Source: Spirogloea muscicola (lineage: Eukaryota > Streptophyta > Zygnematophyceae > Spirogloeales > Spirogloeaceae). Taken from it: 53,478 nt of DNA. Position 1 is the stretch's first letter; each line of letters begins with the position of its first letter. Positions 28,276-53,478 of this stretch are shown here, piece by piece. The notes below the pieces were generated by a model that was given only the letters and a program-made list of their open reading frames with translations, was not told the DNA's origin and did no database searches. The stretch covers positions 1-53,478 of the forward strand of contig WELB01000395.1 in assembly GCA_009602725.1 (NCBI GenBank), in the 5' to 3' direction. The position numbers were made by a program, and so were the translations under genes.

Positions 28276-28289
28276 CACCGTTCCGTGTG

Positions 28290-28790
28290 AGGAGACCCAC
28301 CAAATCACAAGTGCGCGCCCATAGAGAAGAGGGGCTGGCAAAGCCAGCCCAAAAAAGAATAGACAATGTCCAAAGCCAAAGAAAGAGGAGCTGGAGAAAG
28401 GACTACACTACAAAACACTGCAGAACAACCAAATCAGGCTTGGTCAACCTGAGGAACCCACTCCAGTGCCCGCGCACTCGCGGGCAGGCCGCGCCTTAGC
28501 TGCTGCCTCTGGCAATTCGGCAAAGCGACACTACACCGCCCTCTACTTACGCAGATCTGTCTGCATGTATTGACTAGACTTCATTGAGCTTCCATTTGCA
28601 GAACTCAGAAGAGGAGTTTCGGGTTTTGCGTCTTCCGGCCCTTTCTGACCTTGTTCAGCCTTTGGCGCTTTCCCCGGCCCCTTCGAACTTCGAGAGTCGT
28701 TCATTCTTTTCATCTGGGCTGGCCTCCCACAGCCACCGCCCTCTCCTGGAAGCGTCCTCCTTGTTCAGTCTTCTTCTTGTTGATGGTTGA
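28290..28790. mobile_element. Further LINE UTR fragments
   Basis: 28310-28400 is a minus-strand module (GGGCTGGCTTTGCCAGCCCC read on that strand). 28645-28760 has plus-strand words TTCCGGCCCTTTCTGACCTT, GGGCTGGCCTCCCACAGCCA and CTGGAAGCGTCCTCC. Confidence 0.5.
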
Positions 28791-28852
28791 GGATGGAGTG
28801 TTCTGAACGTTAAGTCTGCTGCCTATATTGCGGAATCAAAATTACAATTTTC

Positions 28853-29230
28853 ATGCCTCCCACTTGGATTGGCTCCAGAACGCAGTGCTTCCCTTACTGC
28901 TGCAGATCATCTTCCGGGATGTGCCTGTTACTCTTGAGCACAGTGCTCCTCCTTACAGCTGCACATAATCTTTCGAATAAGTGCAAGGTCAGCTTTCAAA
29001 TGCATCTGACTCTCTCATTCAGAAGCAAAGGGAATTTGTTTACTTGTTTACTTGCATCACTTCTTAAATTCTCGAGCCATCATCAGCATTATTAGATTCT
29101 ACCATTTCAGGTAGCAGGCACAAATAATGAATACTCCATCTTCCAGTATGGATCACACAACGGGCATTTTAAAACTGCTCATGTAAAACAAACTTTCCTC
29201 ACAAGCAGCCACTATGGCACATCAAGCTGA
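28853..29230 (+). CDS. Candidate two-exon small secreted or membrane protein
   Basis: Exon 1 (28853-28987) encodes 45 residues with a hydrophobic run, MCLLLLSTVLLLTAA, and ends AAG before GTCAGC. Exon 2 (29111-29230) follows TTTCAG in phase 0 and encodes 39 residues (NNEYSIFQYGSHNGHF and more) to a TGA. The total is 84 residues. Base composition is AT-richer than the sacsin exons and I recognise no family. It lies 437 bases from the sacsin stop, tail to tail. Treat it as a hypothesis. Confidence 0.22.
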
Positions 29231-29667: not shown

Positions 29668-29868
29668 TCATGGCTTGAACAGCTTGAGCGCGCTCGCAAC
29701 AGGGCCGCGGCAATAAGGGCACCTGCGGCTTGATGAGTGTGCACAGTCGAGGCAGAGCACATGGCCGCATGGCGAGAGTGCGGCGGCCGCCTCGGCTGCA
29801 TGGCAGATGCCGCACTGCCAATTGGCACGCGCTGCATCGGCCTCTTGGGCAGCCGCCTCCGCCTTCCG
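29668..29868 (-). CDS. Sacsin-like gene, exon 37: C3HC4 RING finger and stop
   Basis: The last exon starts after a TTGTGTGCAG acceptor in phase 0 and encodes 66 residues. A charged helix (RKAEAAAQEADAARA) leads into a RING with spacing C-x2-C-x11-C-x-H-x2-C-x2-C-x7-C-x2-C, visible as CGIC, PCGHVLCLDC and CPYCRGP. The protein ends LKLFKP. RING fingers of this type bind two zinc ions and usually recruit ubiquitin-conjugating enzymes. The same C-terminal fusion is known in plant sacsin-like RING proteins, so this exon identifies the subfamily and its true end. Confidence 0.95.
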   Translation of the reverse strand, partial: RKAEAAAQEADAARANWQCGICHAAEAAAALSPCGHVLCLDCAHSSSRRCPYCRGPVASALKLFKP

Positions 29869-32800
29869 CTGCACACAAAACACATTCTCAGAACAAGAAT
29901 TAGCACCGAAAGGACATTGACAGAATTGTAGAACTGTTAGAGGGACTAAAGGCCTTCAAATTGCTGGCATGTTCTTCCTGCGCGCTTGATGATAAGCAGA
30001 CCTTGAGCTTTAACGGCGTACCTCCTGGGCTTGTTACAATTGCCAAAGTTTATATGTCTAGCAAGGCTTACCTGCTCAAGGGCAATTGCAATGTCTGCAG
30101 CCGCAAGCTGCTCCTGCAGCGCCAACGCCCTCTCTAGCAGCGCGCCCTGCTCAGCCCCCATGGGCAGGCCGGCGGCTGCCAGCATGTCGCGCACAGCCCT
30201 CGCAACCTCGCTCGCTGGGATAGCCTGAAAGAAAGCCGGTTACCAACGAGAAGTGTTGAGATACATGAAATTCAGTTATAAACATCAACAATGCAATCAA
30301 TGTAGACCTTGTAGATCAGTGTAGATCAATCTAGATCAATGTAGATCAATGAACAGCTGCCTTTGTCTGTACACAGTTTGGTCTACAAGCAGTCTTGGGT
30401 CTGGGACTGCATGCAGCATTAGCTCGTACCTGCTGCCGTTCCCGGGGTTTGGGTTTGGCAGCGCCGCTGGATCGTGATGCCTCGACCGCAACAGCAGGCG
30501 ACGGGGACGTTGCCGCCACCGCCGTGTCCACCTCCTCGGCAGCTGCCAGCGCCAGCGGCCCTGGCAGCGCCGCAGCAGCCGTGCTCTTGAACGACAGCAC
30601 GGCTGTCGAGAGGAGGTCGCAGACCTCGCCGGGCGCAACCTCAATGGGGACGCGCGACAGCGCTTGGCCGGCGGCCGGCCTCGTGTCCTCCGCCACGCGG
30701 CCGTACCGCAGCCCATTGCCGACGGGCGCCCCGTCGGCGAAGCCGTCGGGCCGCCACGCCACAATCTCGCCCGCGAGGAACGGCCGCAGCGGCGTGATGG
30801 CGACGAGCGCTGCATCCTCCAGTGCGAGCTCCGAGCCCAGCGCCGCCTCTCCAGCAGCCGACGGCGACTTGCCGGATTCGACCATGTCCCTCTCAAAGTT
30901 GCCGCCGAGCCTTAGCACCCGCCGGACACGACTTTCGGCGCCCGCCGGAGAGTCAAGGAATGCGGCGAGCGGCAGCAGCGGCGCTCGGAGGAATCTACTC
31001 AAGACCGCTGCAAGAAGATGAGCCACTGAGAGGGCGGCACCTGGCGGCGGGGCCGCCACATAGATCAGGCCCTGCCCGCGGTCCACAAAGTCAAAGACCC
31101 TGTGCCGGGTCCCGCCCGAGGCCTCCTCGAAGTCATCGGGGCCCGCCTCAGAGTCAGACGGCGCTCTGCTGTGCCGGGTCACGTCGACGACTTGGCCGCC
31201 TAAGTGGTGCGGCAGCAAGACAAAGCGTGTGTAAAGTCTCTTCACGAATCGGAGTCCGCCCGCCGCCGAGTTCAGCGCCCGGACCATGTCATCCCTGCAA
31301 TATGACCACACATTGCAAAGTCAACGTCAGGTCAAGCGGAAGCAAAAGTGCGGCTGCATAAAGGGAGGACCTTGAAGCATCTGACTGTCAAGCACGATGC
31401 ATACCTGGAGACTTTTTGTAGTAACGAGGCATATGTACTATGAAATTGGTAGAATGACTCAGTCAAGATTCATTAGGGGTGTTTGGAAACTCAAAATGCA
31501 CTTAAGATAACTGGAAGGGCTACGTGATCACCTGTGGAGGTCCTTGAGAGCCGGCACTGCCTCCTGGAAGTCCCGCACTGCACTCCATGCTGCTGCCACG
31601 AACGAATCGCTGCAGATCTGGCTGGCCACCTCTGCAAGGTGGAAGTTGCCAATGCTGTCCACGGCCTCGAGGGTGCACGACACATCGAGCACCTAACAGC
31701 AGCAAGTCAGACATTCAGGGCATAATGATTGGAATTTACTTGAGATTCTGCATACAGCAACTGAGACAGGCATCCCAAGAGATTCCTCATCTGGCACAAG
31801 ATTTTTACGTTGATCGACAGAAGATGATGTGGGTGGCGAAGAAAGCATCCTAACTTAGATTTTATTGACTTCTTGCAACTCCAAGTCAAAGGACCTAGCA
31901 CGACCGTACCTCCTGCACCACATCTGAGAGCCGCCGGACGCCAAGCCGGAGGCACACCGGCTCCTTCAGAAGAGTGTGCACAAATCGCACGGCCGCCGTG
32001 TCGATCTCACTAAGCAGCCGCGCGCCGGCGCTGTCCACGTACACGCACGCCGCCGCGCTCACCAGGCGGCATGTTGCGTCCGGCACGACTGCGATGGCTT
32101 CGCGTGGCCGCCTGGCCGACCCCTGCTCGCTGTTTGCCTGCAGATGCATGGCAGGAGCAGATTGTGCAAGCTGAGTTGCATACGACTAGAGCAACTTTGT
32201 ATTTTAAGATCTTCAGCTCATTTGAGCTATGCTTAGCTCAAATGAGCTATGCTTTATACTATGATGCCACATGCAAAATCAGCCCCAGCACACGAAAGTA
32301 ATGTGCTTGTGAAAAGGGGAAAAGTGAGGGCTGCCGCAAAGATGAGACTTGAAGGATGGGCTGCGCCAGGACCCAAAGTCAGGAAGAACATGTCAAGACC
32401 CAAAGCATTGGACTCTCAGGCAGAGTCAACGGCTTTTGAGCTGACCAGGGCAGATGTCGTGTACTGCAGGAGCTTGAGGGTGGCGAGCAGCTCGTTCGGG
32501 TTGAGGCGCTGGTAGCCGCAGGCCCGCTGCAGAGCCAGCAGGAGCTCCCGCGCGCCGGATAAGGTCAGCGCCTCCCGCATGCCCAGCGCCGCCAGGCACC
32601 GCGAGTACGCGAGGTACTGAGATGGCAGCTGGAAGGCGAGCGGCATGAGGTCCACGGTGAGTTTCGCGTAGATCGCGCTCGGCGGGACGAGCCGCGTTCC
32701 GTTGGCCACCGGCACGAAGCTCAGCGCCCGCAGCTTCTCCTTGTCTGCACTCGGATGAAAACAGCGTTAGCACTGGTGAGCATATCCTCTGCATAGATCC

Positions 32801-35800
32801 ATCATCGCCAAGGATCAACGTGATTATCCTGCAGCAAGCCCTTCTCCACTAAGTACCACTACAGGACATTCTCAGATGCAGGACTACTTGCAAGCAGCAC
32901 ATGTAAGACATAAGCAAGAAGGCTGGTGGCATGCAGATTCTCCAGAAAATTTCAGTGTCAAGTTGGAGAGCTACCTGAGCTTCCAATCTGATCCAGGGAG
33001 TTGTTGAGGTACTTGAGCACGTCCGTGAACGCGTTCTCCACAGTCTTGCCGCTGGTTCCGCTGGCATTGGGCCACCTTGCGAGAGCGTTCTCTCCCCCAT
33101 TGCGGCCTACAATCTGCCATGCACACCATGATCAGAGAATCATTCCTTTCTGTATAATGTAAAGCGTTCACTAGCCCACATGATCATAAACAACCAGTCT
33201 GTAAAGGTCTAAATCTTTGGACCTGCAGCTTTGTAGATGAAAGTAGAGAAGCCATTACCATGAAAGGTAGGTGGGATTCTGGCTCGAAGGATTAAGTCGT
33301 GCAGTCAGCAGCTCAGCTGGTTTGGGGGTTTAAGACCATGCCCTCAGGTCTCAGGACTGAGGCTCGGGGCTTGGGGTTTAGGGTTTAGGGTTTAGGGTTT
33401 CGGTCTGCAAGTCTGACAATGGTTGATAATGGAAATGGAAATGGAAATGGTATTCCATTACCTGGAGGTGGTGTAGCACGGTGGCCAGCGGTGGCGGGCT
33501 GCGGAGCCGCAGAGCGGACCATGCGAACTGCGGAGGGACGAGCGCCGGCGCGCCGGCCAGCACCGGCGCCGCCGCCCAGACGAGGGGCCAGTCATCGGGG
33601 GCGGCCGCCTCCTCGTACGCCGCCAGCAGGCGGTGAGCCGGGCCGCCGCACTCGTGGGGGTTGGGCACGCCCTTGAGTGCCGGCACGAACCTGACGTACA
33701 CACAAAGTCAGCAGCTTAGGATTATTCTTATTGGTAGTCCTGATAAAATTCTTATTCTATTCTCTATTTCTCCTCATATGATTTAGTTCTTGGGATGAGG
33801 ATCATTCTGTCCCGCTCTCTCGCACATCTGTATCCTGAGTCCAAGTTAGACTTAAGTATTTAGTCACAACTAAAAACAGATCTCAAGCCAGGAATTTCAC
33901 AGACTCAGACAGAGCAATCGGGATTGTAACGAAACGGTTAAGGTGCAGCTAGCTGTCTGAGGCTAGAACACGGGGACCATCATCAGCAGGTCCAGCAAGA
34001 TTTGCACGAGGACTAAATCACAAAGTCAACCTACCTAATGGACGGCCACTGCAAGTATAAGGCATTCAGACGGCCACAGCCGGGGGTTACTAATTGAAGT
34101 ACTCACTTGATTCTGCTCAAGTCCTCGCAATGTGGGCTCCCGAAGATGGACCCAAAGTTGGCCAGGACGTGGCCGACCAGGTACTCTGCGGTGCTCCACA
34201 GCTCCGGGCTGACCGCCGTCGACGGCTGGCTGAGCGCCGCCGTCACGTCCACGCCTTGCCTGCTCCCCCTGTTGACTTCGGCTGAGCCCAGCTGCTCGAC
34301 CTTCCGGGCGCACTCGAGTAGCAGCGGCGCGTCCAGCTTGTGCTGCAAGCCCGCTTCCCGGAGGACCTCGATCCAGAAGGCGGACGAGAACTCGGCCGAC
34401 GGGAAGCGCTTGCGGTCGGTCGCCAGGAACACGCGGCTCAGGAGCTCGACCGTCGGGTCCAGGAGGTCCGCCGGCCGCACTCGCCGTGCGCCGGAGTCGT
34501 TGCCGCCCGGCCGCACGAACTCCGTCTCCCTCAGAGCGGCCACCACTGCGGCGTTGACCTTCAGACTCGACCAGTGCGCCTGCAGGTCAACATACATGAC
34601 CAATGTCAATGTTGATTCTGGTGTTGACTTCCAGTAGCAGCCCCGTGACGTGTTTGCAATGTTGTTACCCCATCCTCTTACCTCATTACTACATAGTGTT
34701 ACCTCTAACAGCAGTCCCTGTCTAATTACGCTGTTGGAAGACGGTCGAGCTTAGGCACCTGGATGTAGGCCAGAATATGCTCCTGGTCGCGGTCCGCCTG
34801 AGTGCTAAATGTTGGCAGCGCAAAGCGCCCCAGTATGTCCGCATTGCTCAGCTCCTGCACGCCCAAGGTGCGGTACAGACCCTTCCCTTGCGCATCGTCG
34901 CGATACTGGCACCCACAAAACGGGGCAATGATGTTAATAAGTAAACGTGTTAAGTTGCCGAATTGCGAAAGGGTCATGTCGGGCCACTGATTTTGCTCGT
35001 GCTAGACCTCGACAGCAACAATGCTTGCATCTTCTAGTCTTCACCTGGAGGCAGTACTCAGTCTCAGGTTGGAGGAAGGCGCCCGGCGGTATCGTGCAAT
35101 GCAGGGATGGGTCTATCACAGTGTGCCCTCCTTGCACAGTGCGGTAGATGGGGAGCAGCTGCAGCACCGTCACCTCATTCGCGTCGTATGCAGCTGCAGT
35201 CTCTGCTCACGACAGCAAGAATATCATTAGTATCTAGAAGAATCAAATTCACTTCTGAGCTATGCCCCATTGGTCTGACTCGTGATGGAGCACGCTGATG
35301 CGCAGGGCACTATCATGCGCAGATGCTGTTTAAGATGTGGACATACTGCGCACAATTATCTACAGTGACAACGAACTCGATATTGCACAACTGACGATGA
35401 CGACAGCCCAGGGCTATTGTACTGAGAGGATTGAACAAGCGGAATCAACGTCTCCTCGCCTGAGTCAGGCCATGACTTCAAGGGCTTCACTAGAATGCAG
35501 CACTAGAATATGAAAGAGTGTCACTGCCAAGAGTCAAAGCAAAGCTGGGGGCAGTGGTGCTCTCTTTGAGCATATGGGCAATACCCTCGTTTGTTGACGA
35601 AAGCAAAGACGCGAGGAAGGAGAAGAAAGCATCGCAGGTCGAGGGGCTGATTGCAGCTGCGCCAAGAGCCAGGCTGCCAGCCAACTGCCAAATTGCATGA
35701 TCATAGCGAAATCAGTGGTAAAGCGCAGTCCAAGAACCTCGATCGTGAGCCCCAGATCCGCACTTAACTGCAGTATCTGCACTCCACGGTTTTGGAAGAT

Positions 35801-38800
35801 TTTCTCTAGAGGCGCAAAGCTGATTATTCTCACAAGAGCTCTGTGTCTGATTATGCATGGTCAGAACCACGGTCCACAGAGAGCCCAAGTAATGCCTCTG
35901 CTCTTCATTAAATCGACACACAACGATCCAGGCACTTTACTGGGCCCCCCCGGACCACGTCGGATGCTTACCAAAGTCCAAGGGGACCTCAAAAAGTTGA
36001 CTGTGTAATCGGAGTCACTGTGCATGCTCACCTGGAGGTTGACGAGCTTGGACACAACAATCCTCTGCAGGGGCTGATTCTCAGGCGGCAGGCAGCACCG
36101 CAGGGCTGGGCAGGCTAGAAAGGCGTGGTCATAGACCGGCACTCCCAGGGCCTTGAGCAGCGGCAGCAGCCAGGGATGCTCAGCATCCATGGCCGCGAAG
36201 CGCAGGTCAGAGTCAACGGACTCCGCCGCTGGGGCAGCCATGACTTCCACAGGCGGAGCAGTCTGTGCCGGCGCAGAGTCAGACCCAGTTTGACCAGAAT
36301 AAGGATGCGATGACTCCGGCAGGAGGTCGGCAGATGCCTGTCCGGAGGTCTCCGTGCCGCCTTGACTCTCGTCGGCCTGCCCTTGACTTGCCGAAGCCGA
36401 CAGCAGCGGAGGGGCCGCGAGACTTGGAGGCGCGGGCGGCGGGACGAAGACCAGCGCGGCCTGGTCGAGCCGCACGAGCGCCGGCCCGGCTGCGCCGACG
36501 ACCGCCGGCAGCAGCGGGTACGCGCCGAACAGCCGGCGCTGGCGCCGCGACGCGGGGCTGGCGACGGCCCAGAAGCGCCTCAGCCACGCTGCTGTCGGCA
36601 CCTGCATTAGCCGAAGTAATGCAAAGTCAAACCTCCTGGATGTGCAGCATGTAACTTCCAATTCAATGGAATCTTCATTGCTTGACTTCACACAGATCGC
36701 TTTGACGTTGCTTTGACTTTAGAGTTGGAGAATGTGTGCTGGTCGTTGAGTGGGGTCGACCTGCGGGCCGACGGCGGCGGGATCCCAGAAGACCCACGTG
36801 GGCGCCGCAGCCCACTGGCGCGGAGCCACCTGCGCGAGGCACGCCGCCAGCGCGTCCGGCGAGAGCCGCCGCAGGCCCAGCGCGGCCTGGAAGCCGGCGT
36901 GCCGGAACAGGCGGCCGAGCCCCGGGCGCTCCACAACTGGGGCGGCGACGAAGCGGGCGCCCAGCGCCGGCAGGAAGAGGCTTTGCTCGGCGGCGCTGGC
37001 GACGAGGAGGCTCGCGCTGCCTAGCCGGGCCATGGCGCTCGACGCTGTTGGGACCAGCACGCCGCTCAGCTCGCCGACCAGCACCTCATCCACCTGCATG
37101 CAGGTGTTGTCAAAATCAGGTCACATGTAATTTAAGGAATATTAACAGATCCAAAATGATCATTCGAGATATCTAGAGGTGATTCATTTGCCTTTGTGTT
37201 AAGCATCTTGCAATCTGTCCAAAGTATACGTTCCTTGTCACGATGAAAGTCAGGGATTCCTTTAGAAGAGCAACCTCAAGTGCTACTAAATGTAAAAACC
37301 TAGAGCTGTGAGTAGAAAGAACGTCAACGGATATTCTCTTAAGAAGCGTGCTGGCAGTAATAGCTACATCTCATTGTGAACGAGCTGATCTAATCAAAGA
37401 GGAGAGTGCAAGGACATTGGCAGCAGTAGCAGATCACGTCTTGCTCAGCTGTCTAGAATGATTGTCAATAAGTGAAATGAGAGGCACCCACCTCCAGTAA
37501 GTCGTCCTCGTTTACAGTGGCCTCCTCCTCATCCTCCTCTGCTGCCGCCGCCTCTGCTGCTCTCTGTGGTGCGATGCTCAAGTGTGTGCCATCACGAGGC
37601 ACCTCCATTACATGGGCGCCCACATCACCACCCAGCCTTGCAACGGCGGCGGGCTCGCGGCTCAGCTCCTCGATCGTGCTCCGGCCGAGGTCCAGCACCG
37701 CACGGCCGAAGTCTGCGAGCTCCCGCAGCGGGTCGCTGCTCCTGTGCGACGACCCATTGGTGCTGACTTGGGCAGGTTGACTCTGCACTGACAGGGCACT
37801 CGGTCCTGGTAGCAGTTGACTTTGCGATAGAGAAAGCTGGGCCTCCTGGGGTTGTCCGCGGCGCTGCTCGAGGTGGACGTCGGCGCAACAGTAGTCCAGC
37901 AAGTCCACCTGCCAAACAATGCTTGCAGTAGTATCAGTAGGAGCTTTCCGACAAAATTCGAGTAATATAATAGAACTCATATTCCTTTCCAGAATGCAGT
38001 TTCAGACAAGAAGTCTGGCTCCAGTATAAAATAACATGTCCAAGCATAGCAGACAAATGAGGACCACTACCCAACATCTGCCTTTGCACTGATTGTATGC
38101 TGTTTCAGGAATTTATGCCACGGGCCATGTGGATCTTGAGCTGCAAATCAGGACAATCAAGACTACAATGAACCCTGTGCTCTTTCCACTAAGTCTCAAA
38201 GTTGTCAACTTCTTCGACCATGGAGTCAGCCCTCACCACAAAATCCATCCCTCTCCTGCTTCTCATACCTGACCTGGAGAACTATAGTTAAGTCTTTAGC
38301 TCACACTAATCCCTGACCCCCAAACCCCACGCCCCATAATCTTTTAACTATGTGCGATTGTAAAGCCCAAGACCCGTGTGCTTGAGTGGCTGACCTGAAC
38401 GTCCATCGCAGTAACGGCCTTGGCGACGGACGGCGTGCGCAGCAGCTTCCGCAGCATGGCCGGCGTGAGCTCCTTGACGGCGGCGCCAGCCGCCCGGAGC
38501 TCGGCCGTCAGGTCGTACGGCACGGCGAAGACGCGGTAGTGGCTCCGCAGAAAGTTGCCGACCGCCGCCGGCGGCGCGCCGCCGCCAGCATCCGGAGGCG
38601 CGAGGAATACGCCATCGGCGGCGCGGCCCAGGCCGCCACCGTGGAGCTGCCACAGCGGCGCGTCCGCAAGCCGCGCATACAGCGGCTTCACCAGGCCGTC
38701 CACGAGCACCGGCCCGTCCACGCCGTGCAGCAGCTCGGCGGCACTGCCACTGACCACCACTGCGCCTCCCTCCTCCCTCTCTGCCTCCTCTGTCGATCGC

Positions 38801-41800: not shown

Positions 41801-44800
41801 TTACTCTTAGCGTGCTACATGAATGATGCAATGCTGCAAGAAGCAGCAGGTTAACAATGGTAGCTAACAGACCATAGATTGCCTGATATTGAGGCAAGCA
41901 AGCCTTGAATGAGGACTCTATGCAATCCACAAGCAAAACCATGTAACTGAACGTAACAGACAGACTGGACAGTTGACAATTAACAAGGTTGTCTGCACAA
42001 TAATGCTTGTATCTAGTACTGAGAGATACTGGCAACGTCATCCATGGTGAGTCCATAAACCACTGTCATCTATAAGGGAACCCATGTTATGGTACAGTCC
42101 TATGATGTCCAGCACAGGTGAGTGTAAACACTTAGTGGAGGAGCAGGATGATTGACAACGAACCCAGCGTGTTGCGTAGGAGTCGCAGCCGCGAGTGCTG
42201 CCGGCGGTCAAACACAAAGTCCACCTTGCGCGCGCCGACCTTGTCCGCAACCTCGAGCAGGTCAAAGAGCAGCAAGTCAGCGCCGCCGAGGCCAGCTAGC
42301 AGCTGAGCAACCACGCCCGCCGGCATGCATGGCAGGGACGCCGTCGTCGCCTGCTCCATGGTGGACTGCGCCAGCAGCGAGCGGGCGCCCAGGTGCTCCG
42401 CCAGCGCCTCCGGCACGAGCGGGTGCACCAGCCTCTCTGAGCCGGCTGCCACAGGCCAGCAGTGACAAAGTCAACTGGGGCTCAGGCTAGTCCAAGTCAA
42501 CTGGGGCTCAGGCTAATGGCGGCAAATCTTACTGCTGTTGCAGGACTTGGGATGTACCCTCAGCCTTTGTGGCTACTGTTTATGTACTCAAAGACTATAA
42601 GCTCAGCCCTTAACGCTGATTTTATGTACTCGAGAAGTAAGAAGCTCAACACTTAACAAAACCCAAAACTTGCTTCGGTGCACAGTCATGCTACTGAAAG
42701 CTCCACACAACAAGCAACGTAAACTGAGCTCTTCCTAGCTCTATGTCATAGCCAATGCTAGGATATTTGTCTTTGATGGCGAGACTTACCCCTCAAGTAT
42801 CATTGACAGCAAGCCCCATTTTCCTATCTGGAACGTACACCCTCTTGTGTATCCAAGCCGGCCATGAACAAGTGCCAACTCCTAGTCTAAGCATGAGACT
42901 ATAATGAGGCTTAACATCACTGATTTTGACTTTGTGGTACAAAAAGTCAGGCCTCTCACCCATGCCGCCCATCCAGTTGGCGTCGTTGAAGAGCAGGTCG
43001 CGGGCGGGCGCCAGGATGCTGCTGGCGTCCGGCAGCAGGACCTGCTGGCCGCCCAGCTGCCGGCTGGAGTCCGCCTGGAGCTGCGGCGGGACCTCGGCAC
43101 GCAGCGCGCCCAGGACGTGCAGCGCGAGCTCGAGCTGGTCCGGCGCCAGGGGCCGGCCCTGCCGGTCGGCCGCCAGGCGGTGGAGAGCGCCCGCGTAGTC
43201 CACTGCGCCAAAGCTCTCCTTGACGCCCATCGCCAGCAGGAGCTTCTTGAAGCCTACACAGCAGCAATAGATTATCCCGTCAAGTGCTGCGCTAAAGTGT
43301 CATATGTTGTGTTTATCACTGACATCAATAATTACGGCCCCAGAGACCATTGACAAATCTACTGCAGCTCAAGCGGTTTAGTTACTTGGTACCAGTCAAG
43401 TGCAATTCCCCGGAATATTCTCTGTCTGACCCCTAGACCTGTATTGTATGCCCAACGACTTTTATAAGCCTTGCCCTACATCTACAACCCCTATTTCCGT
43501 CAATCATAGAACCTACTCTATCTAAGCCTGCCGGGCAAAGCCACACTTCAACTACGTGCAGCCGTGCAGCTATGTCATGCAAAAAGCCGTGAACTCTGAA
43601 ATTGCACCTAAGGAACTCGGCAGAGGACAAAACAGAGCAATCAGCAAGCAGCAACTCAGAAGTTGATGACCACTACACCTGAAATTCCATTAAGTATATA
43701 TAAATATATGTAATATAAGCCTAGGCCTAAATTCTGAGTAGTCCTTGCTAAGGGTTGATGGATGACTCGCCTGCCAGGTGGGCTGGGACGACGCGGAGGT
43801 AGGGCTTGAAGTGTGCCGGTGAATAGTACGCCAAATCGGTGGCCGATGCAAAGCCGCCGGCGTCGCCTCCGTCACTGTCTGGAGCGGCGGTGCCCCCGAG
43901 CCAGACCCACGGCACATCCTGCAGCCCCGAGCGCACGATGACAAAGTCGTGCGAGCCGACCAGCAGCTGCAGGTGCTCGTAGATCCTGGGAATCTGCCGG
44001 TCGAGGCTGCGCTCGAGCTCCTGCAGATCCTTGACTTGGGCAGAAACCGTCCTGTCTGCCGGCGTGCGAGAGTCCACCTCAGAATCAATGATCTGATCCT
44101 CTGGGTGTGCGCCAGGATCTGCAGTGGTGTCCCTCACAGCAACTTTGTCCTTTTCTTGACTGTGGTCATCGTTGACTCTTGCCTCCTCATGAGCATGTGC
44201 GGAATCTTCAGCACCTTTCAGCTGCAAAGTCCACTTGCCGGCATCCACGGAAGGCTTGACTCTGCCGTCACCGCTGCCGTCGCTGCCAGCCATGCTTGCA
44301 GCAGCGGATCTAGCCTTCTTTGCTGCCAGAGCCCTGAGCTCCAAGTGCACACGAGAGAGCTCCACAAGCTGCCCGGCGAGCACGCCGGCATTGGGACGCG
44401 CCTCCCATCCGAGCTTGGCGCGCAGGGAGCGCGAGCGGCATTGCCCGTCAAGAATGGCCATGCTGCATAGACAGCAGCAGACATGGTCAGCAACAGCTTG
44501 ACAAGGATCATGAGATAAAAGAAAGCAGATTCTAAAGACCGCTTACAACTTTAGCCAGACTCGATGAGAACATGGGGTCATTCTGGGCTTTCAGTCTCAG
44601 GCGTGAGCCTTTGCCGGCTAAACTCATGCGTTTCATTGAGCTAGTCGAGCACTGGCAATTAAAGACACGGATGCAGCACCGAGTAAATATGACAATGGCT
44701 GTAAGCCGAGCCCCTGGACCCTACCCACTTCGAGAGCTGCTGCATAATTGCACGTGACAATCTAAAGCCCGACCCCTAGACAATCTGCTTTTCTATATTG

Positions 44801-47800
44801 TGAAACCTATGCAAATATGTTAGTGAGTCCCTTAAATGTGTTGTGAGAGTGACCACAAAGAGCAAAAAGCTAAGCAAATTACCTTCCAGAGACGAGCCAC
44901 AGGTCCTCCCAAGGCCGGACTTGCTTCGGGCTTGCAATGCGCACCCGGTCGTTGGCCCACGGGATGGCCGTCGCCGGCCGCGCTGCCAGTACCGGGCACC
45001 AGCTGGTATTTGCCAGCGTCTGCCAGAAAGAATCCTCCTCACCTTGGGCTGCGCTCGGCACCAAACTGTCAATTAACAATGAATTGTCAATCAGAATGGC
45101 GGACAGGCCTGCCACGGCACCGGGGCTAGCCGGCGGGGCATGCCGAGCGAGGACCGAGAGGGTCTCCTGAGATGTCCTGCCAGAAGGTGGAATTACTGCA
45201 GCCGCGGCCTCGTCTTGCAGTTCCAAGCCATCGAGGTGGGCCAGCAGCGCCCTGCCCCTGCTGACCGCCTCCTGATTAGTGCAGGAGGTTACAGTAATCG
45301 GAGGTCATTGCTACCAATGGTTAATAAGTTGTCAGTTGTGCATTGCGAGATACCATTAAGGAGCGATAGCCAGTGGACATAACATACAGTGAGGGCAATA
45401 AGAGCGACCCTAAGAGATTGAACAGACATGCATGCATCTTTGACAGCATCCCACTGAGCAGAACTAGACAAAACTATGTTAATGATAATATATGTCGGAA
45501 TGTTTTATCAAGTCTGAGGCCTGATACTTCATTGCACGTCACAGCACTGTGCTGTGATGAGAGTAGCCCACCTCCTCGTTGGCTGCAGCCAGCTTCTCGG
45601 TGAAGCACGCGCTGGCCAGCAAGCCCTGCCGTCCGAGCTCCCGGCGCAGGCCAAGGCTGACGAGAGCCGTGAGAGCAGGCTCCCCGCGGAACTCGGCGGC
45701 CGGGAAGAACGTGTCCTCGTCTAGGAGCGCCTGCAGCTCGCCTACCCTGGGGTCGTACAGACTGCCAGGAAATGATAAAAGAAAGTCATTACTCCTGCTC
45801 CTTACAGCTGAACAGTTGAAGATGAAGGATGCATGGAGAATTTCCTAGAGTTTAGCTTAATAGTAAGCTGTCATACTTAATTACTCTGGTTATTCTGGTC
45901 ATGTGCCCAGCTTGCAGTATAACAACTGCATATACTTGAATGCAGGACAGGCTGGACTTCACAATCAAACAATTGCTAGAACTCATTCAGGAGCATCTTC
46001 CAGCTTCCTTACTGCTCCGCTGACTGACAACCAGTCAGGCAGATGTGTATTACCAGCATTACTATCTGGTACCACTCAATCAATGCTCTCTATCATCTCA
46101 GCCCAGCGCCCAGAAAGCTATTTGAAACAAAGAGGCAAGTCCAGGCCAAGGGTACAGTCTCTGCGCTAAGCTCTGTGCTAAGCATGGGTTCTGAGAGCTT
46201 ACAAACCAGGGCATTCTCCAATTCATCTCAGCATTATGCTGCTAACGATTCTCAGACAGCAAATTTCGAGTCACTTTATGAGCACACCTTGAAGGTGTGC
46301 AGAGGGCGCCAGCAGCATTCGGGACAAAGGCGAGGCCCACGAGCGCGGCACGCGCCTCCGGCTCCCCGCGCTCGAGCGCCGGCAGCTCCGCCAAGACGCG
46401 GAGCATGGCCGCTGTCGCGCGGCCACGATCTGCACCACCCGCGAGCTCCTTGGCTGCATGGCTGCGGTAGAACTGCGCCCGAGTGACCGGCCGCACCCTC
46501 AGCGCCGTGGCCATGATCGACCGCTCGCGCTCGGAGTCGCAGCACACGAAGTCAGCGCCGAGGAGCGCCGAGTCCACGCCCGGCGGCGGGAAGAAGCAGC
46601 GGCCTTCGGGGAGGTCGGTGAGCTGCGGCTCCCCGCCGTGAGCATGGCACTCGTAGATGCGCAGCGCGCGCATGGCTGCCAGGTGCTTCTCAGCCAGGCC
46701 GCCGATGGGTCTGCCGGTCTGGCTGTGCCACTTGGACTGCAGTAGGAAGCCCCGGAGCTCGCGCAGCTCGCCCCGCGACGCGCCGGCCAGGCCGGCGCTC
46801 ATGTTGGAGGCGTTGGGCCGGTCCGCCGCCGCCGCCGCCAGCGCGTCCAGCACGCCGGCGGCGGTTGCGTCGTGGACGTACGCACCGATCTGGGGGTGGC
46901 GGACGTCCACCGCGAGGCTGAGGATCTGGCAGCCCGCGAGCTGCAGCACCGAGGCCACGTTCTCGGTCCAGCTGTCAAGCGCCAGCTGCTAAGTCAGCAC
47001 CTAGTTGATCTAATTGGGAATCATTTACTAGGCGATTAAGCATCCTAGTGAAGGTACTAGCACGGCTAGTATAAGCTAAACTCCAGCGAGGACCTGGGAT
47101 AAGTATCTGTGACATGCACCTCCCTCTCATTTGATGTAGGCAGGCATACCACTATCAAGACTAGCACAGAAGAACACAAGATTTGCGTAGAAATTGGCAT
47201 ATCTTGTCAGAGCAAAACTGACTGAACAGAGCTGCATACTGGCTAATCTGAAGCTAAATGGTGGAGCTTCCAGTGGGCCTGGTACGCTTGCTTGACCACC
47301 TGCCGTCGCGGAGGACAGGAGAGTTGTGTCGGAGGCGCACGAGGCGGCTGCCGGCCACGGGCAGCAGCGGCCACTCGCCGAAGAGGTCGAGCGACGCCGG
47401 GCAGGCGGCGGCGAGGTGCGCCCACAGGCGCCGCAGCCACTCCATGCTGGGCTGGCCCTCTGCCTCTGAACCTCCGCAGCAGAAGCTTATCATCAGGACA
47501 ATGTGTATCAACAAACAACAGAGCTAATTTCACCTCACAAAAGTTGAGGGTCAGGAAAAGCATGGGAAACAGTTAGAGGGGTCTATGTCCTAATGGATTC
47601 TCATTACAGTTGTCAATCTACAATATGGACGTTTCCCTGTCAGACACTCGGCAATGCCGTTCGCAGCCAGTCACTGGAGGCGGAAGGCGGGCCTAACGCA
47701 TCCGTCGACTTGGCCTGGACCTGACAAGTCTGGCCAATAAGTGCTCCAAATTGGTGCACAACGAGCTCACTCTGACCTTAAGTACTTGACACTGAGCATT

Positions 47801-50800
47801 GTGAACCTTGCAAGCAAATTATCTGAGCCTATTTGCAAGCCCCTTAAGCCCTTCACCATGATTTCTTTCCATCCTCTGATCCTTGTTAATTGTCCCAGTA
47901 ACCACATATACTTAAGAGTGGGTTACGATGCTGGCAGCGGTTAACCTGGGTCCCACTCAACGGCAGCCCGGCCACGCCATGCTGGGGGCAGCAAGCGGGG
48001 CATCGCCTCCTCCAGCACTGCCGGCGACAGGAGCTGCAGGTTGGTGCCGCCAGAGCGTGCCAGAGCCTCCAGCTGTGCGAGAACGGCTGCATCGATCGAC
48101 CTGCCATGACACACCAACAGCTGCGTAAGCCGCCTGCTGCCTCTCCTCTAAAGCCATGACACTTTGAGGTCTTATCATTCCTAATTATATAATTCTGAAA
48201 GATGGCCGTTGGCCTCACTTAGTGCATTTGTGGGTTGTTGCTTGCACTTGCTTGCGGCTTGGTGACAATGTACTAGCAACAAACAGAAGTGGGGCTTGAC
48301 GAAGGCTTCAAGAGTCCAGAGATTCTTAAGAATCACAAAATAGTGAGGGTTATATGTGGATACCAATTTTTCCTTGAGGGCTCAGCAATGGAGTGCAGGG
48401 CCGAATACCTGTCAAGTAGCACGTGTGCCATGGTGGTGCCCAGCAGTGCTGCCTCGTCGGCCGTCGCGGCTACGACGGCCCGCTGGCTGTCGCTGGCCGC
48501 GACGAATGTGCCGTAGGAGCCGTCAGCCAGCGGGATCAGCGGCAGGCCTTGGAGGGCAGCCGCCGCAAGCGCAAGGTCCGCAAGGTCCGAAAGGCAATAC
48601 TGATGGTGAAAAGTTATGGGGCAATAGGATAATAATGAGACCAAGCTCAGCGACCAATTAGTGTGATTAGCCATGGCGCCTGACGCTAGCATTGGAGGAA
48701 AGGAAACATTTGAGTGTTAAAGCGCTTCTAGACTTGATTAAGGGCTGTCGGATTGGAAGGATTGCTTGATTGCCATCATAATGGAAGCCTACAAGTGTGT
48801 GTTCAGGGAGTGACATGTGGGTCCAGAGACCAAGTTGAAGTGCTGATGAAGGCTTGATTAGTGATTTGCAATTACAACTGATACCATCAATGCAAGATAA
48901 TGGAGGAGTTATGAAGTGGCTCATGGAGGAGTTATGAAGTGGCTCATGTTAAGTAAGGACAGGATCAAGGGAGTGAGCATGTGACCCTGACCTTGAGGGC
49001 GAGAACAGTGCTGTCACGGTCTGCCAGGCTGCGGCCGCGCGCTGACAGCGACTTCCGGAGCAGCGCCGGCGAGAGGAAGTGCAGGCCGGCGCAGTTCGCC
49101 TCACGGAAGCCGGCGATGATGGCCGACGGCGCATCGGCGACCGGCAGGCCCGCGCTCGCCAGCGTCGCGTCCAGCTCTGGGCCACGCCATGCGCTGGTGT
49201 CTGGGTACACGGCACGTTTGGGCTGCATGATCGAGCAAAGGACTTGGTCAATGAATCATAAAAGGTAGTGGTGATGAAGTCAATGGCTCCTAAAATAGAA
49301 CAGATTCCTGATTAGTAAGTAAAACAGAGCTATGTTACTTGACTTTGTAACAAGGTGATCGACACTGAATGCCAGTCAGCAGCAAATTTGTTTAGCAAGG
49401 GGCCGAGCTCAAAGAGGGAGGTGAGATTGAAGGTAAGCAGCTCAGCAGCTTCAGGGACTCAGATGCTGCACTTAGTGGCAGGATAAGTGCACAGCTTCAC
49501 TGAGGCCTACAGTCAAGACCGTAATAACCAAGGACCTAAATCCATTCACCCATAACCCTAGAACCTAAAACCTAAACCCTAAATCCAGAACCCTAGACCC
49601 TGAACCCTAAGTCCTAAACACTAAGTCCTTAAAGCCAAAGACATTTAGTTCCTAAGCATGGCGTCAGGGGGGCGCATTACGGTGATCCACCGGCCTCCAC
49701 CGGCATTTGTGAAGACGACCGGCAGCTCCAGCTCCACGGCAGCGGCGTATACACTCGCGGCGAGGCCCGCCCATGGCGGCGCCAGCTCTGACGGCCGCGG
49801 CGGCCAAAGGCCGTGGTAGCTCGCCGGCGGTGGCCCGCCGCCGAAGCCGGCAGCAGCCTCCGCCAGCATCCGTGCATACGCCGGAGCTGACCAGCACAAC
49901 GAACCAGCAGAAGGTCAGTGTGGTGAGTACAGAAACGTATTCAAATAGATAGCTGATTGCAGGTGTTTAGCTAACAAAATCTTGGTCTATAGAGATCTGG
50001 GACAAGAAGGACCCAAGTCACTGATCAAGAATTGCACAATTACTGCTACGAGAAATTGTGCATGATCATCAGCTCTTAATGATCAAAGACATTGGTGTGA
50101 GTACAGTGACTATCCTACTCTGTCAGGCTTTGCTCGTGCTCCATTAATGCTGACCAAAGTGTGTACGCTACTTTGGTCCCTTTAACGTACAAAATCAGCA
50201 TCAACCTTGGAGCTGCACTTAAGTGTGCACTTAAGTGTAAAACTAAAGACAATTTGTTGTCAGCTGTTTGGGGTGCAAGACAGCAAAGGGCGACAGACCG
50301 GCGACATCGTCGAGGAGGCGGCGGTTCCAGTCGGCGCGCGCGGCACCGCCGCCGGCGGCCGCCGTGTCGTCGCCGCCGGACCACAGGTCGCGGCGGTTCG
50401 CCGACAGCTCAAAGTAGCCATTNCCGCCAGCGCCGAGCTCCGGGCAGCGCCGCCGCCCAAGGCCCCTGCCACGAGCCACGCCTCCTCGGACACCACCAAG
50501 TCCTGGTGGCCAACTTGGGCAGCTCCTTCCTCACCTCCCTCCTCACCTCCCTCCTCAGGTTTCTCCGGCCAGCCCGCCTGCCGCGTCACCGCCAGCGTCG
50601 TGCGGCCGGCGAAGTACGGCAGCTGCGCCTCCGGCGTGCGCATCAGCCGGCCGTAGAACGCGTCCTTGCCTCCGCTGCCGCCCCCGCCGCCGCCGGGCCC
50701 GGCGATGAACTCGTGGAGCGCCGCCTGGCGCGCCGAGGCGGCCGCCGGCTCCAGCTCCGAGCACCGCGTCGAGAACAGCAGCTTGGGCTCGCCGCTCCCG

Positions 50801-53478
50801 CCGCCTGCTGGCCTGTGGTACAGCGACACCTGCCGCACGCTGCGCAGGAAGAGCAGCGCCTCCGGCGCGAGCGCGGCAAACGCTGCAAACAGTGCGAGCA
50901 CGTCGGCGGGCGCGCACGGCTCGGCCTTGATCTCCGACACCGCCGCCGCGGCCAGCGAGCGCAGCGGGAAGCGGAAGAGCGTGCCGGCGTACGGCGCCGC
51001 CCCCCGCAGGTCGCAGCCGAAGTGCGCGAACGGGGCGAACTGGTCGGGGAAGGCGGCCGGCAGGCCGCGACCCGGGAACACGAGCTTCAGGCCCGGCTGC
51101 GCGTGGCTCACGCTCGGCAGGTGCCGCGCGTGGGGGTCGAAGAGCACCACGTGGCTGCCTGACACGAACCCTGCGCATGCACCGGCCATGCAGATCATGT
51201 CCATCTCAAGTCAGCGTCTAAATTTAACCGACGAATAACCGAAGATTAACGGGTTTTCAGTCTGGTCTGCACTTGGCTTCTGCCAGGCAGCCTGTAAAAT
51301 TGACGTAGCCCACAACTCAACGGACTCTAATTGCCACCAACATCATAACCTGTGAGTTGATGGAGTGCAGTAACCCTGTGGCTGGTCCACAGTATAAGGT
51401 GCAGCTCTGGTCACAGCTTTACAACAAGGATAGTAGCTATAGCTGAAAACAAGCTCCACTTCCAGGCTACTCAGGCATGCGGCGGCAGGAGGGAGGGAGA
51501 AGGAGCGTAGGGAGCGCACCGGGGACATCAGTGAAGTGGTAGACAGAGTTGAACCCAAGGCCGAAGCGACCGATGGCGGCAGGCCGCCGGAGCTTCCCGT
51601 CCTGCCCGATGCGGCTGATGGCGTACAGGTCGCTGGGTGAGAAGACGCTGTCATTGTGCGCGAGCAGCGCGGGGCCCTGCCACGGGCGCATGCCGGGCGA
51701 CAGGAGCGACGACGTGCCGTAGGAGCCGCTGTCCAGGAGGAAGGACACGGACGTCGCGCCTGCGTCGTCGGCGTTCTGCAGCAGCTCGAACAGAATGCCT
51801 GGGCAGGCCGAGGAGGTTCCAGCAAGAGAGAGAGAGGGAGGAGAGAGGGAAGAGGGAGGAGGGTCGGAGAGGGACAGAGGAACAGAGAGGGAGCAGGAGA
51901 ACGGGCGTCAGTCCTGACAGAGAGGAAGGAAGGAGGAGGACAACGCAGGAGAGAGGGAGGGGCCGAGCAACACAATCAGCAGGAGGGTGATCCCGAGAGT
52001 GTTTGGGCGACTGCATAAAATGTGCTATGAGCTGAGCAAGCAAGACCGTCTCAGTAGATATAGTAAGGGATTACGGCAGCTAACTTTGTCAAAGTAACTT
52101 CTGATTACAGTTTACGTCCAAGATGGACATGATCGAGTAAGGATTATGAAGGAAGAAATAACAACAGGAGAGGGGGAGGAGAAAGTGAGAGCATACTAAA
52201 AGCAGAGCAAGGCCCAGATTCCAGTCTCAATTTGGGACAAACCTACCCCAACCGCTAAGCCTTAATCCTGCATTGTCACTTAACCTCTAATGATTTTGAT
52301 TGTGGGTTTTGTCTTCGATAACCCCACTCTGACCAGGCAATTCGCCAATGTTCTCACCTGGCCCGTCGGCATACATCTTCACAATGTGCTTGAGGCGCGT
52401 GGTGAGCGCCTCGTGCTGGCCGAACGCCTCAGCGACACCGGCGGCGAGGCCGAGCTCCAGGCCTGCCGCAGTGCCAGCGAGCAGCAGCCGCCGCAAGGAC
52501 CGCGCGCCTAGCCGCTCGCCCACGTCCGCCGAAACGTTCGGATGCACGAACCGCAGCGGCGCCGCCACCAGAGCGCTGCCGTCTGCACAATGCATGGGGC
52601 CAACAAGAAACCCTGTCACATGTTTATGAAATGTAAAACTTCAGCACAATGCCCCCCAGAAAGTCCGTCTCGTTAGATACAGTCCTCTTTGTAAACGATA
52701 AGTACTTTAGTCATTGGCAAACCATCCTGACTTTGAATTACAAAGGTAACTAACCGTCTCGCTCTCTCTATCACGAACATGCAACTCCCATTATTCTCAT
52801 ACGAGCTTCGCATTGAGGCTTTAGAAGCTCACTGGTGCCTGGCGCATCTCCATCGGCGCCGCCATCGGCCACCCAGGGTGCGTCGTTGTACACCAGCTCC
52901 GCCGCTGGCGCCAGTATGCCCGCTGCATCCGGCACGTGCACGCCGCCACTCTCCCCAGGCGGGCTGACGGCCGCCCGGAGCAATGCCATCAGCACATCAT
53001 TATATCAGAAATAATGTCATGTTAGATGTAGTATGATACTCCAGGTCTAGGTATTCTCAAGCTTAACAGTAGGTAACGTGTACGTGTGATTTCCATCTGT
53101 TGTGTATCTAGGCTGACTATCTAGGAACCTGTCTCCTCTCCTCCCTCATCCTCTCCTGCTCCCCTGCTCCCTCTGTCCCTGCCCTACTCTGGACTACGAG
53201 TAGGATCTGAAGAGCGACAATTAAGAGGGCGCCCTCATGACCTCCTTGACTGCTGACATCCGACGTCCTTAAACTCATGACAAAACTCAAAACAATATAT
53301 TTGAATAACCGGTAATGGATGAAGAAGAAGAAGAAGAGAATAGATGGGGAGACCTGAAGCGGAGATCAGCGAGGTGCTGGACAACCCAGAGCACGGAGGG
53401 CAGGGCGTCGGGCGGGACGGGCGCCCCGCCAGCGGCCATGGCCGCCAGCAGTGCCGCGAGGTCGGCGGGGGACGGCGC
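29668..53478 (-). CDS. Giant sacsin-like protein with C-terminal RING finger (3' 37 exons; 5' end outside window)
   Basis: The gene reads right to left and runs off the right edge. I placed 37 exons by splice signals, phase and protein similarity to plant sacsin-like RING proteins (recalled, not searched). Coordinates in protein order are given in the six domain entries below. Coding length in the window is 11,384 bases, about 3,790 codons; introns average about 345 bases. All junctions keep frame (17 phase 0, 11 phase 1, 8 phase 2). The stop codon is at 29668-29670. Key motifs are the ATPase N-box ELLQNADDAG, the glycine motif GRFGLGFNSVYH and a C3HC4 RING. Sacsins are very large multidomain proteins with Hsp90-like ATPase repeats and are thought to act as co-chaperones in the cytosol; plant members end in a RING rather than the J and HEPN domains of animals. 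Coupling chaperone and E3 ligase roles here is inference. Unbroken phasing argues for a working gene. The one defect is at the N at 50423. Confidence 0.95.
30072..39057 (-). CDS. Sacsin-like gene, exons 22-36: C-terminal region between the last repeat and the RING
   Basis: Exons are 38395-39057, 37492-37908, 36761-37093, 36032-36601, 35525-35684, 35045-35202, 34759-34905, 34107-34579, 33462-33690, 32975-33113, 32446-32744, 31910-32137, 31532-31692, 30430-31294 and 30072-30224. Segments that fit plant sacsin C-termini include WNTDLLACVREAYQELL, FWPRSLPLL, PLYARLADAPLWQLHGG, FLRSHYRVFAVPYDL and LTPAMLRKLLRTPS; further on I rely mainly on splice phase. Exons 23 (acidic run EEDEEEA) and 25 (Ser, Gln and Ala rich) hold low-complexity inserts. 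Exon 35 ends in an Ala, Pro and Lys rich linker. Exon 36 (LLERALALQEQLAAADIAIA) looks like a short coiled coil just before the RING. For exon 27 an alternative in-frame acceptor exists a few bases downstream. Confidence 0.85.
30308..30351 (+). repeat. Short intronic tandem repeat (GTAGATCAAT)n
   Basis: GTAGATCA-type decamers to dodecamers recur about four times in the intron 30225-30429. Confidence 0.8.
33373..33401 (+). repeat. Interstitial telomere-type repeat in a sacsin intron
   Basis: Three to four TTTAGGG units lie in the intron 33114-33461. GGAAAT words repeat shortly after (33429-33448). Confidence 0.9.
39374..42445 (-). CDS. Sacsin-like gene, exons 16-21: degenerate ATPase-like half-repeat
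   Basis: Exons are 42164-42445, 41480-41770, 40910-41190, 40354-40476, 39943-40091 and 39374-39605. The block mirrors the ATPase domain: ERLVHP and LGARSL are followed by LLFDLLEVADKVGARKVDFV, which aligns with the N-box FELLQNADDAG but has valine for the key asparagine and lysine for an acidic residue. FQGPA matches WQGPA, and FPDQFTPF matches FPDQFAPF. The glycine loop is reduced to YGSGLLGAYAVTDLPA. It then runs through WLVAQSCGAGQTREKALDRR and YNLTPVGGVAAHVL. This part is unlikely to bind ATP in the Hsp90 way and may be structural; the same pattern is known in sacsin sub-repeats. For exon 16 a second in-frame acceptor would start it at 42436. Confidence 0.9.
42461..42516 (+). repeat. Intronic tandem duplication, 27-bp offset
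   Basis: AAGTCAACTGGGGCTCAGGC followed by TA occurs twice in tandem in the intron 42446-42959. Confidence 0.85.
42960..49886 (-). CDS. Sacsin-like gene, exons 6-15: body of the sacsin repeat
   Basis: Exons are 49681-49886, 48992-49222, 48409-48599, 47946-48100, 47300-47465, 46288-46971, 45572-45761, 44883-45271, 43771-44462 and 42960-43253. Recognisable family segments in order are RWIT joined to PKRAVYPDT, FLSPALLRKSL, LQGLPLIPLADGSYGTF, QLLSPAVLEE, SMEWLRRLW with GEWPLLPV, ELRGFLLQSKWHSQTG, SLYDPRVGEL, DSFWQTLANTSWCPVL, MAILDGQCRSRSLRAKLGW, DVPWVWLGG with FKPYLRVVPAHL, and LLPDASSILAPARDLLFNDANW. Exon 14 (43771-44462) carries a long charged, probably disordered insert, roughly residues 70-150 of that exon. 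The intron after exon 14 begins with GC instead of GT. Exon 9 (47946-48100) holds no ATG in its reading frame, so it is visible only by splice phase and similarity. Confidence 0.9.
43254..43770 (-). other. Non-canonical GC-AG intron 14 of the sacsin-like gene
   Basis: Read on the minus strand, exon 14 ends CACCTGGCAG and the intron begins GCGAGT; it ends TGTGTAG. Only this donor joins exon 14 to exon 15 in phase 1 and gives HLAGFKKLLLAMGVKE, which matches the family. The other 35 introns I placed have GT donors. GC-AG introns are a known minor class spliced by the major spliceosome, and the surrounding CAG and GAGT match its strong donor context. Confidence 0.75.
48898..48948 (+). repeat. Intronic tandem duplication, 26-bp unit
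   Basis: ATGGAGGAGTTATGAAGTGG followed by CTC occurs twice in tandem in the intron 48600-48991. Confidence 0.85.
49553..49626 (-). repeat. Degenerate telomere-like array in a sacsin intron
   Basis: Words such as CCCTAAA, ACCCTAG, ACCTAAA and CCTAAGT repeat with a period of about 7-8 in the intron 49223-49680; read on the minus strand they are TTTAGGG variants. A weaker stretch lies at 39778-39838. Confidence 0.75.
50299..51798 (-). CDS. Sacsin-like gene, exons 4-5: intact Hsp90-type (GHKL) ATPase domain
   Basis: Exon 4 is 51520-51798 and exon 5 is 50299-51170. Exon 4 encodes GILFELLQNADDAGA, with the conserved E, N and D of the Hsp90 N-box, followed by WQGPAL, the lid region with DLYAISRIGQ, and GRFGLGFNSVYHFTDVPG, the glycine-rich nucleotide loop. 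Exon 5 continues with VLFDPH, FPDQFAPF, GTLFRFPLR and EALLFLR, and ends with NGYFELSANRRDLW and WNRRLLDDV. In GHKL proteins these motifs bind ATP and Mg2+. Exon 5 is 872 bases, one base off the length needed to keep frame, and the frame changes at the N at 50423. Several tens of residues expected between SSALA and NGYFELS are absent. Confidence 0.92.
50423..50423. other. Single N marking a probable collapsed gap inside exon 5 of the sacsin-like gene
   Basis: Reading on the minus strand, the frame before this base ends ARSSALA and the frame after it, shifted by one, begins NGYFELSANRRDLW. In the second half-repeat of the same protein the matching landmarks (KALD and VLGDF) are separated by about 53 residues. 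Here they touch. Loss of about 160 bases plus a frame change exactly at an N is best explained by assembly, not by gene decay. Confidence 0.7.
51818..51960 (+). repeat. Purine-rich intronic tract
   Basis: GAGAGAGAGGGAGGAGAGAG-type sequence fills much of the intron 51799-52357. On the coding (minus) strand it is a long polypyrimidine run. Confidence 0.8.
52358..53478 (-). CDS. Sacsin-like gene, exons 1-3 of the window: end of an upstream sacsin repeat and lead-in to the ATPase domain
   Basis: Exon 1 is 53354 to beyond 53478, exon 2 is 52833-52963 and exon 3 is 52358-52582. Exon 1 ends VVQHLADLRF and joins in phase 2 to exon 2, which carries the family motif LVYNDAPW after VPDAAGILAPAAE. Exon 3 contains RFVHP, ERLGARSL and then FGQHEALTTRLKHIVKMYAD, the segment that leads into the ATPase N-box in plant sacsins. 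The same NDA-W plus VHP plus LGARSL series recurs near 43.0-42.3 kb, so this is one unit of an internal repeat. Exon 1 is in frame at the window edge, so more coding sequence lies to the right, presumably the earlier sacsin repeats. Confidence 0.88.

Follow-up and report, generated by a model that had tools for sequence, protein, structure and literature searches.

A single gene for a giant sacsin-type protein, composed of repeats, a C-terminal region and a RING finger, and most likely acting as a chaperone-ligase whose last Hsp90-like module is a pseudo-ATPase, is the reading that we favour for the DNA analysed here, with a probability of roughly 85%. The DNA, referred to below as the window, is a whole contig (C395) of 53,478 bases from the 153 Mb, 471-contig genome assembly of Spirogloea muscicola. 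The gene lies on its minus strand and runs from the right contig edge at position 53478 to a TGA stop codon at 29670-29668. Its exon structure and the conservation of that structure, the two SACS domains, the ligands of the RING and the ATP-site residues that are kept or lost are direct observations. By analogy with the families concerned, the long arms of the repeats would act with the Hsp90-like modules to hold misfolded or assembling clients, ATP turnover would take place at the intact module of repeat A, and the last module would serve as a non-catalytic pseudo-ATPase scaffold in a putative division of labour. The RING, as a predicted E3 ligase, would recruit a ubiquitin-loaded E2 and mark the clients that are not released.

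The final gene model comprises 37 exons separated by 36 introns of 139-559 bp, 35 of which are GT-AG and one GC-AG. The coding sequence amounts to 11,276 bases, including one N, and 502 + 3,256 residues are readable within the window, the N-terminus being absent. Exons are markedly richer in G+C than introns (0.693 versus 0.453). A preliminary description of this DNA had proposed a 37-exon sacsin-like/RING gene across some 24 kb; the count of 37 recurs in both a blind and a final model and the gene is conserved in further copies. The same description had pointed to many short exons, several of them devoid of an ATG, in agreement with a median exon length of 229 nt and with 16 of the 37 exons having no in-frame Met.

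Two sacsin repeats and their ATP sites

The Pfam SACS profile (PF25794, curated cut-off 32.8 bits) matches the protein twice, with 245.9 bits in repeat A (E 6.9e-73) and 68.1 bits in repeat B (E 1.3e-18). Repeat A starts in exon 3 (52358..52582), which rests on the model and on conservation, has its Hsp90-like ATPase core in exon 4 (51520..51798), proceeds through the rest of sr1 and the following region in exon 5 (50299..51170; model and Pfam) and reaches its sr3-like end, identified by profile comparison, in exon 15 (42960..43253). The Hsp90-like module of repeat B is degenerate; its first half is encoded by exon 16 (42164..42445), which carries the SACS match, and its second half by exon 17 (41480..41770), assigned from Pfam, structure match and constraint, with repeat B continuing into exon 18 (40910..41190; model and Pfam). 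Against crystal structures of sacsin, repeat A aligns at E 2e-48 (PDB entry 5v44) and repeat B at E 4.5e-10. NCBIfam NF047352, the profile of the sacsin N-terminal ATP-binding-like module, is matched above its cut-off by repeat A and has no match in repeat B at E up to 0.01, so that repeat A exceeds the cut-offs of both profiles and repeat B that of PF25794 alone.

Comparison of the two repeats with hhalign gave E 2.9e-13 over 274 columns covering the Hsp90-like module and a second collinear piece at E 2.2e-5, the best value for a reversed repeat B control being 0.12. Exons 1 (53354..53478, its 5' part cut by the contig edge) and 2 (52833..52963), where the sr3-like piece continues with support from the model, conservation and profile comparison, match the sr3-like end of repeat A (hhalign probability 92.9, E 3.6e-7), and therefore an earlier repeat ends at the window edge. 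A possible sr3 of repeat B in exon 32 (32446..32744) falls short of significance when profiles are compared (E 0.011, probability 3.8). The window had previously been credited with a model of the last sacsin repeat; Pfam and hhalign instead place in it two repeats and the sr3-like end of a preceding one. The Pfam check then suggested for the joined translation returned SACS twice and zf-C3HC4_3 once, all above their cut-offs. Judged by sequence, the protein is a member of the sacsin family, the SACS module and tandem repeats in the same order both being present. For repeat A, a GHKL (Bergerat) ATPase fold is implied through sacsin, as described in the relevant part of PMC9880540, with the difference that no Hsp90 family is listed for this protein in Pfam.

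Table 1 of PMC9880540 lists ten ATP-site residues that do not vary among yeast Hsp90 and the three modules of human sacsin. With the positions mapped by the author from pairwise alignments and no structure, repeat A keeps 10/10 of these residues and repeat B 4/10, namely Leu 34, Gly 121, Gly 123 and Thr 171 (Hsp90 numbering). At the other six positions, repeat B has Asp for Glu 33, Val for Asn 37, Lys for Asp 40, Val for Ala 41, Cys for Gly 118 and Leu for Phe 124. The ten-residue feature of an active GHKL ATPase is thus found in repeat A and is missing from repeat B only. All three gene copies in the genome have the same residues at the ten positions of repeat B, and the module is under strong constraint: dN/dS in exons 16-17 is 0.015, 0.093 and 0.098 in the three copy pairs (1, 6 and 7 nonsynonymous changes), compared with 0.022, 0.018 and 0.063 in exon 4 of repeat A, and the wider modules give 0.085-0.167 for repeat B and 0.132-0.181 for repeat A. 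The repeat B module is probably a conserved pseudo-ATPase, a part that is kept rather than decaying.

The strength of this constraint would also suit a repeat B module that has retained ATP binding in a modified form, as would the residues left in it: one Leu, two glycines out of the three in the list, and the last-strand Thr. This explanation has to accommodate the replacement of Glu 33, Asn 37, Asp 40, Ala 41, Gly 118 and Phe 124, and we regard it as unlikely. ATP binding has been called debatable even for human sacsin, in the part of PMC9880540 that deals with it. As to the earlier identification of a sacsin-like chaperone/RING gene, the presence of sacsin-like and RING parts on one gene is supported, and the chaperone part is qualified by a last Hsp90-like module without most of its ATP-site residues.

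The RING finger and conservation in three copies

The protein ends in a C3HC4 RING finger encoded by exon 37 (29671..29868), with all eight of the eight Cys/His ligands legible in the sequence. The zf-C3HC4_3 profile matches once (38 bits against a cut-off of 27, E 1.5e-9), and a genome-wide search scores 44.2 bits at 29695-29817. An Arg directly after the last RING Cys, here in CPYCR, is a hallmark of RING-type E3 ligases. The stop codon that follows (29668..29670) is TGA in all three copies. Upstream of the RING, the C-terminal region is encoded by exon 34 (31532..31692), exon 35 (30430..31294) and exon 36 (30072..30224), the last of these forming an Ala/Glu/Gln-rich segment immediately before the RING; exons 34 and 36 come from the model and the copy search. 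Exon 35 has no known domain by Pfam and is 93 and 91% identical as protein in the other copies; an AlphaFold model of it, built with three close sequences, was uninformative (mean pLDDT 33.6). A RING at the gene end, as first described, is borne out by the above-threshold profile match and the eight ligands.

Protein searches found two further copies of the gene in the genome, one spanning the whole gene on contig C297 and one divided between C374 and then C422, each of which holds a part. In a three-way alignment, the two copies share 93.7 and 92.5% identity with the window in exons and 80.8 and 78.8% in introns, and gap runs number 8-9 in the former versus 314-320 in the latter. Substitutions between the window and C297 show an excess at third codon positions (142:105:464 at positions 1:2:3), and dN/dS is 0.176, 0.191 and 0.205 across the three copy pairs. 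No stop codon occurs in the compared codons (3,734 for the window versus C297 and 3,683 in each other pair), and an in-frame stop is present in 36/36 introns. Acceptors are kept at 36/36 and donors at 35/36 sites, versus an intron background of 470/895 for AG and 366/770 for GT, although these counts are not independent, since splice-site conservation partly guided the final model; the single donor left uncounted is an alignment gap beside a GT still present in C422. For the blind model, which is independent of the copies, 33/36 donors and 34/36 acceptors are conserved in both. Conservation, with constrained exons and unconstrained introns, is the main evidence for the gene.

Over long blocks of DNA, introns included, identity between the copies is about 80-93%, with dS of 0.17-0.20, and several RING and SACS matches occur in threes genome-wide; together with the three copies of the gene, these matches suggest a triplicated genome. 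A genome triplication is named for S. muscicola in the portion of PMC7994812 that concerns it. Patchy DNA similarity between copies goes on downstream of the gene, where window positions 24500-29000 and C297:93500-98600 are partly collinear. Ten reading frames at 12.9-28.1 kb of the window have no Pfam match over the cut-off, and no Rfam family or tRNA was found in a scan of the window; further left, the dinucleotide GT is repeated perfectly over 573 bp (5640-6212), with GA-rich repeats after it up to 6622.

No Pfam profile reaches its cut-off between the SACS domain of repeat B and the RING, a stretch in which a sacsin-repeat gene might give way to an adjoining, separate gene for the C-terminal region and the RING. 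Such a boundary would have to fall within an unbroken chain, conserved in the two further copies, in which no gap exceeds a 559-bp intron, in which three copies share their intron phases and splice sites across the join, and whose order is the same on C297 and C422. Constraint is moreover similar throughout, with dN/dS over the three pairs of 0.20-0.23 in exons 1-14, 0.15-0.20 in exons 15-33 and 0.14-0.18 in exons 34-37. We consider two genes very improbable; continuity and conservation support a single predicted gene that carries both the repeats and the RING.

Assembly gap, missing 5' part and exon model

Within exon 5, the single N at position 50423 stands for missing sequence: the reading frame is open on each side of it and broken across it. 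This N is an assembly gap because C297 has extra bases at the same place. Exon 5 is 977 bases long in C297 and 872 in the window, a net excess of 105 bases; 119 bases to the right of C297's own N encode GRAFCFLPLPVRTGLPAHV, which directly precedes NGYFELSANRRDLW (NGYFEL codon) and has no counterpart in the window, where NGYFELSANRRDLW directly follows the N, and on the other side of the N C297 has 14 bases fewer. C374 turns into a lengthy run of Ns some 80 bases short of the place of the gap. The window and C297 are identical over the 253 bases up to it, and we infer that the assembler may have failed there because the copies are almost identical. The 53-bp intron that the blind model had placed across the N was judged false. 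In C422, exon 15 has one extra A (GCC-AAC versus GCCAAAC) that shifts the frame; with the frame open on either side, it is likely to be a sequencing error.

Triplicate genes often decay, and the broken frame at 50423, along with the extra base in C422, could be taken to mean that the window copy is a pseudogene, one of three, on its way to being lost. The break coincides exactly with the assembly N, a site at which C297 carries additional bases, and both the stop-free codons compared in every pair and the dN/dS of 0.18-0.21 speak against decay, so that this explanation appears even less probable than that of two genes. The favoured reading remains a constrained gene with a gap in its assembly.

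The gene is truncated by the contig edge and continues beyond 53478. The breakpoints are nearly alike in the three copies: relative to the window edge, C297 passes into poly-A and an N stretch 3 bases further out, and C374 into a single N 63 bases further. A DNA search of the assembly with exon 1 returned three matches, which are the three copies, and none else. A genome search with PF25794 at E 0.001 gave 6 matches, all of them repeat A exons in the three copies, with no earlier repeat; at E 10, the 16 matches consist of those 6, 3 from repeat B and 7 elsewhere below the cut-off. Nor was an earlier sacsin module found in the sequence upstream of the breaks in C374 or C297.

Among the weak SACS matches below the cut-off are two sets of three (C19:184410, C132:291919 and C36:821327; C111:67038, C187:238382 and C78:562543), which we take to be probably other Hsp90-like ATPase genes, for example NO VEIN-like ones. 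Upstream of the C297 copy, an unrelated, divergent gene on the minus strand (C297:60113-66927) has above-cut-off pieces of a CW-type zinc finger and of SNF2, and an F-box-like piece just under the threshold (22.9 versus 24.3 bits). Upstream of the other copy, at about 10000-30000 of C374, WD40-like and membrane-protein-like frames were seen by eye, as was a long, retroelement-like frame with a CCHC knuckle motif. This upstream DNA is not collinear with that of C297, and the single N of C374 may mark a misjoin.

The blind gene finder was written for this analysis and trained on the window alone, with no use of relatives, and yielded 37 exons with 10.65 kb of coding sequence; a first self-training run had drifted to 117 exons, many of them of 0-10 nt, and was discarded, and a stiffer run gave the 37. 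The final model was obtained from a comparative run with the two other genomic copies followed by manual review. The comparative run gave 41 exons before editing by hand, and the edits reflect the author's judgement: its exons 5/6 were fused across the N, its exons 15/16 were fused (the frame is open in all copies and the donor weak), as were its exons 26/27, its 8-nt exon 17 was removed in preference for a GC donor, and its exon 33 was cut back to the donor at 34152. The final and blind models have the same number of exons, which differ in part, with 31/36 donors and 31/36 acceptors in common.

Between the modules of the two repeats, exons 6 (49681..49886), 7 (48992..49222), 8 (48409..48599), 9 (47946..48100), 11 (46288..46971), 12 (45572..45761) and 13 (44883..45271) are defined by the model and by conservation. 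Exon 14 (43771..44462), from the model and the copies, ends in the donor CAG|GCGAGT of the sole GC-AG intron, which is kept in 3/3 copies. Downstream of exon 18, the model and conservation likewise define exons 21 (39374..39602), 22 (38395..39057), 24 (36761..37093), 25 (36032..36601), 30 (33462..33690), 31 (32975..33113) and 33 (31910..32137), and exon 23 (37492..37908) is found in the blind and reviewed models. Exon 19 (40354..40476) comes from the comparative model only and is absent from the blind one, which used a different acceptor (40046) for exon 20 (39943..40091). Exons 26 (35585..35684) and 27 (35045..35205) also belong to the comparative and not to the blind model. Exon 29 (34152..34579) draws on the blind and comparative models and on review, the comparative run having picked an alternative donor in the same phase at 34107. 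Values of pN/pS above 0.5, resting on few changes, were obtained in one of three comparisons for exon 10 (47300..47465; 3 nonsynonymous and 2 synonymous changes), in two of three for exon 26 and in one of three for exon 28 (34759..34905). Exon 26, which has a weak donor, is the least certain exon of the model.

Every junction had been said to keep phase, which is true of the final model; the frame nevertheless breaks at the N, and phase-keeping alone is no evidence, because shuffled sequence can be threaded as well. Free threading gave 19-25 phase-keeping exons in 6/6 dinucleotide shuffles (scores 59-99), 30-33 in 3/3 shuffles of 300-bp blocks (554-593), 24-26 in the left part of the window on both strands (269-298) and 41 on the opposite strand (1187), versus a score of 2261 for the real sequence, with scores trained on the real strand and hence biased towards it. 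A chance chain of phase-keeping joins in a GC-rich stretch holding no gene, for which the 19-41 exons threaded in these controls might be invoked, is practically dismissed by a real score far above all of them, even with that bias, and by the domain matches and the conservation between copies.

Relation to known sacsins and implications

Plant sacsin-like proteins are giant proteins in which sacsin repeats are followed by a C-terminal C3HC4 RING. The closest kin by architecture are presumably Arabidopsis AT5G23110 and its relatives, and the gene is filed by its architecture as a plant-type sacsin-RING member, of a known kind. Hsp90 itself is set apart by the repeat architecture and the RING, which we take not to be Hsp90 features.

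The literature search found no description of plant sacsin-RING modules, most subscription papers lying outside its reach. In the gene lists where they are named, a 'sacsin-like' protein of wild wheat (PMC8874221) and a Chlamydomonas gene 'Sacsin (SACS)' (PMC8448359) come with no domain detail. Human sacsin (SACS, 4,579 residues) resembles the present protein in its internal repeats with Hsp90-like modules, a solved one of which is the structure matched by repeat A. PMC3629688 describes it as combining three repeats with a ubiquitin-like, a J and a HEPN domain, and its list of domains contains no RING. A term search of that paper returned no mention of plants, Arabidopsis or RING; HEPN is placed in animal and slime-mould sacsins in the pertinent part of PMC3710099. 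The present gene has a RING instead, and four pieces covering the part within the window showed no listed Pfam match to DnaJ, HEPN or ubiquitin-like domains up to an E-value of 5, in a search in which HMMER filters drop most matches above about 0.1 and the N-terminus falls outside. The two also differ in that all three human modules keep the ATP-site residues, as tabulated in PMC9880540, whereas the last module here does not, and in that human SACS consists mostly of one giant exon, according to the gene structure given in PMC3629688, in contrast to at least 37 exons in the present gene.

As a test case for annotation, the gene combines Met-less exons, a gap hidden behind one N, a GC-AG intron and a 5' part lost in 3/3 copies, and its three copies form a natural alignment that tells exons from introns without transcripts. 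Animal sacsin, when mutated, causes the ataxia ARSACS. The degenerate module is the single point that is perhaps new to specialists. We tentatively extend it, at less than even odds, to RING-bearing (plant-type) sacsins generally: their last Hsp90-like module may be a conserved pseudo-ATPase, and an intact ATPase module may work in an asymmetric pair with a dead scaffold module to feed the ubiquitin ligase of the same protein, a design different from that of animal sacsin. A last module that is degenerate yet constrained would provide a specific and cheap prediction on how RING-type sacsins differ from those of animals.
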